From Longimicrobiales bacterium (GTDB lineage Bacteria > Gemmatimonadota > Gemmatimonadetes > Longimicrobiales > Gaopeijiaceae): 64,000 nt of DNA. Numbering within the stretch: the first letter of the stretch is position 1; each line of letters begins with the position of its first letter. The stretch spans positions 1-64,000 of the forward strand of contig JANQDZ010000039.1 in assembly GCA_028278645.1 (NCBI GenBank). Direction: 5' to 3'. The position numbers were made by a program, and so were the translations under genes. Below are positions 55,822 to 57,931 of this stretch, piece by piece. The notes below the pieces were generated by a model. It was not told where the DNA came from, made no database searches, and saw only the letters and a list, made by a program, of their open reading frames with translations.

Positions 55822-55935
55822 ATGACCACCGCGACCTGGGTCACGATGATCGGCATCCTGGCTTTTGTCTGGGGCGGATTCTCCATCGCCCTGCGAAAGG
55901 CCGTTAGGAGCGAGTCGGACAAAAGCCAAGAGTAG
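55822..55935 (+). CDS. MetS-like NSS transporter small subunit (37 residues)
   Basis: A short gene easily missed: 37 residues with one membrane helix (WVTMIGILAFVWGGFSIAL) and a charged tail (RKAVRSESDKSQE). The order of short N terminus, hydrophobic helix, WGG motif and basic end matches the MetS/MaAIMP_sms family, the tiny partner of MetP-type NSS methionine/alanine importers. GAGG at 55810-55813 precedes the ATG. It follows the VPS10-like gene by 5 bases and may be co-transcribed with it. An NSS transporter lies 33 kb away (21376-22827) rather than next door. Confidence 0.68.
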   Translation: MTTATWVTMIGILAFVWGGFSIALRKAVRSESDKSQE

Positions 55936-55946
55936 GGTGAAAGGCG

Positions 55947-56023
55947 GGAGGGCCAGGCGTCCCCCTCGCGAGAGAACCGGCCGTTTCACTTCCGGACACT
56001 CGCTCGCGGGACCCTGGCCCTCC
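55947..56023. repeat. Palindromic repeat element, copy A
   Basis: The outer arms GGAGGGCCAGG (55947-55957) and CCTGGCCCTCC (56013-56023) pair perfectly over 11 bp, continued by GTCCC/GGGAC and GCGAG/CTCGC inside. The 36-base core (55968-56003) matches copy C at 31 of 36 positions in inverted orientation. The arms are different in sequence from those of copy C but equally complementary, which points to selection for structure. Confidence 0.85.
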
Positions 56024-56046
56024 GGCCTATTCGACCGGGCGGGTCC

Positions 56047-56080
56047 GAGAGAACCATTCGCTTCGCTACTGGACACTCTC
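56047..56080. repeat. Palindromic repeat element, core copy B
   Basis: A 34-base core, same orientation as copy A, matching copy C (inverted) at 31 of 34 positions, with inner arms GAGAG/CTCTC. It lacks the long outer arms of copies A and C. It is followed by a separate small hairpin AGGGGAG/CTCCCCT (56083-56101). Confidence 0.82.
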
Positions 56081-56082
56081 TC

Positions 56083-56101
56083 AGGGGAGCCGGCCTCCCC
56101 T
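56083..56101 (+). other. Short perfect hairpin upstream of the methyltransferase gene
   Basis: AGGGGAG (56083-56089) and CTCCCCT (56095-56101) pair around CCGGC. There is no T tract, so this is a structural hairpin, not a standard terminator. Confidence 0.5.
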
Positions 56102-56149
56102 GCCTCCGCTCCGAAGGTTCGTCCAGGGCGAGGAAGTTGAGGTTCTTCG

Positions 56150-56929
56150 ATGAGCTCTGTCTACGATCGGATCGGCGACGGTTTTTCCAAGTATAGGCGA
56201 GCCGATCCGCGGATTGTGGACCGGATCCTCCGATTCCTGGACCTATCCCCCCCCGCCACGATTGCCGACATCGGGGCCGGATCCGGAAACTACAGCAGGG
56301 CACTGGCCGACCTCGGGTACCGGATTGAAGCTGTCGAGCCATCCCAGGTCATGCGGGATCAGGCCGTCCCCCATAACGGCGTGCGGGTCCATGAAGGGGT
56401 GGCTGAGCGTCTCCCGCTCCAAGATGCCTCCGTGGATGCCGTCATCTGCCTCCTTGCCGCCCATCATTTCCAGTCAAGGAGGTCTGCGGGGGCCGAGATG
56501 GCTCGGGTTTGCCCCGAGGGGCCACTCGTCTGGTTGACGTTCGACGCAAGGGAGGCCGAGGAACCTTGGTTCAAGGAATACTTCCCAACCCTCTGGGAGC
56601 TGGCTCTCGAACGGTCCCCGCCCATCGGTGAGGTCAGGCGGGAGTTGGCCATAGTCACGGGAAGGAGCGTGGACGTAGTCCCGTTCCTTGTGCCTTGGGA
56701 CCTGAAGGACTGCTTCATGTCATCCGGATGGCGGCGACCTGAGCTGTACCTGGACCCGGAGGTCCGGTCAGGTATGTCGGCTTTCCAACTCTCGGACCCC
56801 CGGGTCGTCGAAAAGGCGTTGGAGAGGTTGGCATCCGACCTGGACTCAGGGGCGTGGGCGGCCGCTCACGGCGACGTCCTTGAGAAAGACGAGATCGACT
56901 GGGGCTACCGGTTCTTGGTCGCCAGGTGA
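56150..56929 (+). CDS. Class I SAM-dependent methyltransferase flanked by repeat elements
   Basis: A 259-residue methyltransferase of the UbiE/Methyltransf_11 type. It shows SAM motif I IADIGAGSGNYSRALADLG, an acidic motif II (EAVEPS) and the hydrophobic motif with AVICLLAAHHF. The substrate is not known. The gene stands between copies of the palindromic element: A and B upstream (55947-56080) and inverted copy C downstream (56954-57036). This makes it either cargo of the elements or simply a gene in a repeat-rich gap. Ribosome binding sequence is weak. Confidence 0.85.
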   Translation: MSSVYDRIGDGFSKYRRADPRIVDRILRFLDLSPPATIADIGAGSGNYSRALADLGYRIEAVEPSQVMRDQAVPHNGVRVHEGVAERLPLQDASVDAVICLLAAHHFQSRRSAGAEMARVCPEGPLVWLTFDAREAEEPWFKEYFPTLWELALERSPPIGEVRRELAIVTGRSVDVVPFLVPWDLKDCFMSSGWRRPELYLDPEVRSGMSAFQLSDPRVVEKALERLASDLDSGAWAAAHGDVLEKDEIDWGYRFLVAR

Positions 56930-56953
56930 GGGCTCGGCTGAACCGGAAAAAAT

Positions 56954-57036
56954 GCCCGGGCCGGGGAACTCCCCACAGCGAGTGTCCAGAAGCGAAGCGG
57001 ATGGTTCTCTCGCGAGGGGAGGCCCTCGGCCCGGGC
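56954..57036. repeat. Palindromic repeat element, copy C (inverted)
   Basis: Outer arms GCCCGGGCCG (56954-56963) and CGGCCCGGGC (57027-57036) pair perfectly over 10 bp. CTCCCC/GGGGAG and GCGAG/CTCGC continue inward to a core (56978-57013) that is the reverse complement of cores A and B. It ends 14 bases before the stop codon of the OmpA gene and could also end transcripts from either side. Confidence 0.85.
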
Positions 57037-57049
57037 TCAAGAGCTTCGG

Positions 57050-57931
57050 TTAACCCCCGACGTTGGACTCGGCGATGACGTCCAGGTTCGGGAGCATCAC
57101 GATCTCGATTCGCCGGTTCAAACGCTGACCGTCCTCGGTAGCGTTGGTCGCCACCGGCTGGAACTCGCCGTAACCCGCTCCCGACACCAGGTCGGGGGAC
57201 ACTCCACGGTCCACCAGCAGCTTTACCACCGAAAGCGCTCGGGCGGCTGACAGCTCCCAGTTGCTGGGGAACTGGGCAGTGGAGATCGGGTCGTCGTCGG
57301 TATGCCCCTCCACCTGGAAAGTCCGATCATCGAACTCGCTCAGGACGGAAGCGATCTCCCCAAGGGTTTCCCGTCCGTCCCGGCCCAGATCCGCGCTACC
57401 GGGAGAGAAGAGAATGTCCTGGGGCAGGTTGATAACCATCCTGCCCCGAACAATCGAGACGCTCAGTCGCCCGGCATCGATGAGAGACCGGAAACGGCCA
57501 AGGACCTCTTCGTAAATGCGATTCCTCTCCCGGATCTCCTCTTCGATAGCCGCCAGCTGATCGAGGCGGCCTCGAAGGCGTTGAGCTTCCGCACCCTGGG
57601 CGCTCATGAGATCCTGGTTTCGCTGGGCCTCGAGCTGACACTCGGAGAGTCGCTCCTGGACCCTGAGAGTTTCCCGCCTGGAAGTACCCAGCTGTTCGAT
57701 AAGCTGATCCGCATCAGTCTGGAGGCCGTCGATCCGGGATTGGAGTCGGGATTCCCGGTCATCTCTGCGCTCTAGCTCACGCCGGAACTCTTCGTTCAAC
57801 TCCTCTTGGGTAAGCCGAGCGGCAGAGAGCTCCTCCAAAGTCCGGTTGTGGGTGCTCTTCTGAACACAACCGACCAAGGAGAGGGGAACGAGGGCGGCTA
57901 ACAGCATGCCACCGGGCTTGAGCGTGTACAC
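57050..57931 (-). CDS. OmpA/MotB-type peptidoglycan-associated lipoprotein
   Basis: A 293-residue outer-membrane lipoprotein (lipobox SLVGC, Cys22). Residues about 30-140 are a Glu/Arg/Leu-rich coiled coil. Residues from about 165 are an OmpA_C peptidoglycan-binding domain with ILFSPGSADLGRDG, VEGHTDDDPI and GYGEFQPVATNATEDGQ, NRRIEIV. It would tether the outer membrane to peptidoglycan. The start is GTG 57931, with AGGAGG five bases upstream on the minus strand. Divergent from carB. Confidence 0.9.
   Translation of the reverse strand: MYTLKPGGMLLAALVPLSLVGCVQKSTHNRTLEELSAARLTQEELNEEFRRELERRDDRESRLQSRIDGLQTDADQLIEQLGTSRRETLRVQERLSECQLEAQRNQDLMSAQGAEAQRLRGRLDQLAAIEEEIRERNRIYEEVLGRFRSLIDAGRLSVSIVRGRMVINLPQDILFSPGSADLGRDGRETLGEIASVLSEFDDRTFQVEGHTDDDPISTAQFPSNWELSAARALSVVKLLVDRGVSPDLVSGAGYGEFQPVATNATEDGQRLNRRIEIVMLPNLDVIAESNVGG

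Follow-up and report, generated by a model that had tools for sequence, protein, structure and literature searches.

A small genus-restricted family of intergenic palindromic repeats with a conserved hairpin tip and locus-specific arms in a Longimicrobiales bacterium

The window analyzed here, a stretch of 64,000 nucleotides, contains three palindromic elements, A, B and C, around a methyltransferase gene. Element A (positions 55942–56028, + strand; tip at 55977–55995) is an 87-nt hairpin with locus-specific arms that starts 6 nt past the stop codon of a 37-aa ORF (55822–55935, + strand; MTTATWVTMIGILAFVWGGFSIALRKAVRSESDKSQE). This ORF sits between a sortilin-like gene and element A, and encodes one membrane-like segment; we take it to resemble very small transporter subunits. 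Element B (core at 56043–56088, + strand; tip at 56054–56072) consists of a core with weak arms. The methyltransferase gene (Methyltransf_11, Pfam E-value 3e-17; 56150–56929, + strand) lies between B and element C (56954–57036, − strand; tip at 57004–56986), an 83-nt hairpin that again has locus-specific arms. Elements A and B are located between two co-directional genes. Element C occupies the convergent gap between the methyltransferase gene and an OmpA-family gene (57050–57931, − strand; Pfam E-value 4e-19), just past the OmpA stop codon, and is followed by six T residues on the − strand, which is the OmpA strand.

The window matches the core pattern three times, and 100 shuffles give no match. 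Element A is predicted to fold with −59.8 kcal/mol on the core strand (z −5.7) and −65.2 on the other strand, and element C with −54.8 kcal/mol (z −6.0) and −61.5, respectively. A fold scan of the whole 64 kb in 100-nt windows with a step of 10 ranks C first and A third in stability. The analysis confirms the long hairpins around a common core that an earlier note on this DNA had described for A and C, as well as the inversion of C, on the − strand, relative to A and B on the + strand. The outer arms of A and C, presented there as fully complementary, show an actual complementarity of 86–94%. The description of B as a core with short arms holds for the core; its fold is no better than that of shuffled sequences (z values of +0.45 and −0.83), and its arm pairing is not above the non-cognate level.

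The genome holding the window (G000) was compared with those of two congeners, G001 and G002 (assembly completeness of 95.6%, 90% and 67%, respectively). The core pattern identifies seven copies in G000 versus none for the reversed control pattern. A search with a covariance model built from these seven copies, as the earlier note had proposed, adds three weak matches, which proved to be long hairpins that share the apical tip but have a different internal loop. The total for G000 is ten copies across seven intergenic regions, so that the three copies originally reported were an undercount. Congener G002 has nine copies across five intergenic regions, and none was detected by covariance model in G001. 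The final model was built on 17 copies; the E-values given by model R2 for the G000 and G002 copies range from 2e-13 to 1e-3. Of the five G002 loci, three (L101, L103 and L099) are situated no more than 240 nt from the end of their contig, which suggests that the hairpins interrupt short-read assemblies; probable breaks of this kind make all copy counts lower bounds. The OmpA contig of G001 stops exactly at the junction occupied by element C in G000, and assembly breaks could hide copies in G001.

No genuine copies were found outside G000 and G002 among the genomes of the family (about 95–96). A weak covariance-model match in G042, from another genus, was discarded because it does not fold as the element. 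The exact tip gave single hits in four other genomes among 395 of the phylum, close to chance expectation; with a looser tip pattern, relatives other than G002 showed isolated single hits at about the control level. Strict core searches of genome-contig and viral-contig collections returned chance hits only, none folding as the element; a phage collection contained no match, and plasmids just weak partial matches to coding sequence. Rfam gave no match above the gathering score, and its permissive matches are mostly to microRNA precursors, that is, to generic long hairpins. The elements are, accordingly, a small genus-restricted family of palindromic DNA repeats, present in G000 and one congener.

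The repeat unit is formed by a 19-nt tip and an inner stem of about 15 nt per side. The tip reads CCR-TNC-GC-TNC-GC-TNC-YGG in the 19 copies; the T, the C and the GC pairs are invariant or changed once, the three N positions vary freely, and R and Y covary. This invariance is in part by construction, since the collecting pattern fixes much of the tip; covariance-model searches, in which the tip letters are not required, gave no further tip variants. The complementary strand (CCR-GNA-GC-GNA-GC-GNA-YGG) displays three GNA triplets and contains GC-GNA-GC in 18 of the 19 copies, the exception being copy A with GT-GAA-AC. RNA parameters predict the more stable fold for the GNA strand in 16 of 19 copies, DNA parameters in only 13 of 19, so that the case for a single-stranded DNA role stands on the motif and not on these energies. 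Two subfamilies are set apart by an internal loop below the tip, which is AGAA/ACA in seven G000 copies (one of them AGGA) and typically CTGG/AGG in most of the remaining ones. The second subfamily is also present in G002, with perfect or near-perfect arms of about 25–30 bp. A five-pair helix under the internal loop is formed in about 71% of cells, 85% of cells are paired overall, and the 5′ inner stem is CTCGC rather than GCGAG in the rho and C303a copies. Covariation of the tip and inner helix amounts to 0.249 versus 0.128 in shuffles and was exceeded in 0 of 500, in a control where shared ancestry remains. Both further copies and conserved pairing, on which the earlier note had made its proposal depend, are thus found.

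The outer arms are unrelated between loci and paired within each locus, and their information content is approximately at background past about 16 nt from the tip. The mean duplex energy of the outer arms is −34.5 kcal/mol for cognate and −22.3 kcal/mol for non-cognate arms; five copies beat every non-cognate combination, and the arms of B, E and C139 pair no better than the non-cognate average. These energies support the claim that divergent arms keep their base pairing. The selection on structure that had been deduced from it may exist but is not a necessary conclusion: template switching creates and repairs perfect stems, inverts spacers, and can maintain the pairing of palindrome arms even where selection is absent (PMC8794818, PMC8604942). 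Two sources of the arms were considered and rejected: similarity to the adjacent coding tail is not above the non-cognate or chance level (4.9 vs 4.9 nt), and matches elsewhere in the genome are only chance-like and GC-rich.

All copies are intergenic, and some are clustered, as in A–B, in D–mid–E (+, −, +) and in a G002 tandem array with a period of 72–75 nt. In G002 C303 (L099, 1–490), the array comprises partial elements linked by GCTCTTGGNGGATAAGAG, and the linker could form a small hairpin. Orientation relative to the genes and to one another varies, with no strand bias among the copies. The tip starts 30–51 nt past a stop codon at eight of the ten loci examined, an offset of about one arm length that reflects the very short junctions. 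Such placement directly after stop codons, which most copies share, would also be expected of a structured RNA or 3′-end element, in which the hairpins serve as mRNA terminators or 3′ stabilizers, a protein or the ribosome contacts the tip, and the spread of the repeat is incidental. The covariation and the T6 tail of element C on the OmpA strand agree with this explanation. However, short junctions force tolerated insertions to follow a stop, and most upstream mRNAs read the TNC version, whereas it is the GNA version that folds better with RNA parameters. Moreover, the copies at his and F are antisense to the genes on both sides, the C139 copy is flanked by divergent genes, and those at his and Gfo lie inside probable operons. 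A terminator scan did not flag C, although its loop limit excludes hairpins this long. We consider an RNA function as the origin of the family unlikely, while granting it some weight.

A comparison of orthologous junctions reveals occupied and empty sites. G001 shares gene neighborhoods with G000 at about 75–87% nucleotide identity. The hisB/hisF and Gfo/MFS genes overlap or abut in G001, about 20 bp separate rho from the phosphoribosyltransferase (PRTase) gene, and the space between the ABC and auxin-carrier genes measures about 55 bp; each of these junctions is occupied in G000. Conversely, the C139 site of G002 is empty in both G000 and G001. The auxin-carrier junction carries one orthologous copy in G000 and G002 with recognizably shared arms, and two further copies in G000. 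The family is, therefore, multi-copy, intergenic and sometimes clustered, and congeners differ in whether a given orthologous junction carries an element. The empty sites and the orthologous auxin-carrier copy indicate that the arms are inherited at the locus and arrive with the element, and a scenario in which terminator hairpins already in place received the tip is rejected, since the empty sites have no arms. The clean short junctions of G001 imply that the elements, including their arms, were gained by insertion or else lost. G000 and G002 both carry elements at two junctions, and because G000 is nearer in nucleotide identity to G001 than to G002, loss from G001 is as likely as separate gain at shared junctions. 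No target-site duplication is apparent by eye at the C139 site, and most sites are not base-exact. In G000 C69 (L105, 5207–5390), hisB and hisF are set apart by about 170 bp that include a hairpin; the two genes abut in G001, and the stretch is a putative natural insertion inside the probable his operon. In G000 C90 (L104, 5733–6716), a CarboxypepD_reg-like gene follows the rho-linked element and precedes the gene for the phosphoribosyltransferase, whereas only about 20 bp lie between rho and the latter in G001.

The congeners also bear on the proposal that A, B and C bracket the methyltransferase gene like a mobile cassette. B/A and C indeed flank the gene in opposite orientations, and no DNA match to it was found in either G001 or G002. 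Neither congener, however, has a match to the terminal part of the sortilin-like gene that precedes element A, which shows that the strain-specific segment reaches past A and is not delimited by the elements, and C lies in a convergent gap. In addition, A, B and C have different arms and no common ends, nothing comparable is flanked by other copies (e.g., his, F and G), and a cassette arrangement of the kind that accompanies integron attC core sites and the IntI integrase is not seen. The cassette is unsupported, and we deem it very improbable.

Purely mutational palindromes are another conceivable source of the family: tandem duplication and recombination would amplify the element, and template switching would make and homogenize its arms, with no dedicated mobility. 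The known ability of template switching to create and repair stems and to invert spacers, the CTCGC stems and the G002 tandem array all fit this scheme. Dispersal is nevertheless needed to bring the same tip to about a dozen different junctions of two genomes, the empty sites lack outer arms, and the arms do not copy the adjacent coding tail beyond chance. This origin appears rather improbable to us.

We favor, as the probable explanation, that A, B and C are genus-restricted, REP/BIME-like intergenic palindromic repeats that are mobilized in trans and whose pairing is kept by template switching and perhaps by selection. A trans-acting enzyme would use the folded single strand, most likely the one with the GNA triplets, as its substrate and insert non-autonomous copies, which would survive where no gene is broken. 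After insertion, pairing may be upheld by replication template switching and possibly by selection, to which use as transcript-end structures might contribute. Against this trans-mobilization stand the low copy number for REPs, loss in G001 as an alternative to insertion, the varied orientation of the copies, the failure to see a target-site duplication by eye, and the lack of a mobilizing enzyme in a search that covered Y1_Tnp. In a more specific scenario, which we regard as quite improbable, a non-Y1 enzyme would recognize the single-stranded DNA hairpin by its GNA-rich tip and provide each insertion with near-perfect arms of its own, for instance through hairpin-primed synthesis as the element inserts. 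A conserved tip with private stems separates tip recognition from the upkeep of pairing, and the insertions, some of them inside probable operons, provide test cases for the origin of near-perfect palindromes. They also call for caution in RNA discovery, as such covariation alone does not prove selection on an RNA.

Among known systems, REP and BIME repeats are the closest in placement. REPs are found just after stop codons (PMC3733652), and the present elements resemble REP/BIME sequences in being palindromic, intergenic near gene 3′ ends, situated after stops in convergent or co-directional gaps, grouped in mixed-orientation clusters (D–mid–E and the G002 array), and variably present between related genomes (PMC3733652). 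By contrast, REPs have stems of 6–13 bp with a conserved sequence and number hundreds, whereas here the arms span about 30 nt, the tip is conserved with unrelated outer arms, and there are about ten copies. The REP foot tags GTAG and CGTC each occur in 5 of 30 feet (4.2 and 3.7 expected), no excess over chance. The earlier note had reported no RAYT in the window and suggested looking for a partner REP-type transposase; this absence extends to the genome, as Y1_Tnp (PF01797) was found in none of the three genomes of the genus, incomplete assemblies in which a gene may have been missed, and in 5 of 14 genomes of a control search. The element works like a REP/BIME, but with neither foot tag nor Y1 transposase we do not class it as one. 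The usual definition of REP-like repeats calls for conserved stems and a tyrosine transposase; this family combines a conserved tip with site-private stems. Of the relationships first suggested, REP/BIME likeness thus stands for placement and clustering, and a MITE in the usual sense is rejected, since conserved terminal inverted repeats are lacking and the outer arms have about background information between loci. The double-hairpin and repetitive hairpin elements of fungal, algal and sponge mitochondria, going by the titles and abstracts that describe them, are likewise dispersed hairpins that invade intergenic DNA and offer a lead, although they are organellar. Finally, GC-GNA-GC is the extra-stable DNA minihairpin of Hirao and colleagues as outlined in PMC4686876, which gives d(GCGAAGC) a melting temperature near 78 °C and describes it as nuclease-resistant. 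Whereas d(GCGNAGC) minihairpins are known as oligonucleotides and parts of aptamers, the motif is here located inside a natural repeat and is predicted to fold as DNA.
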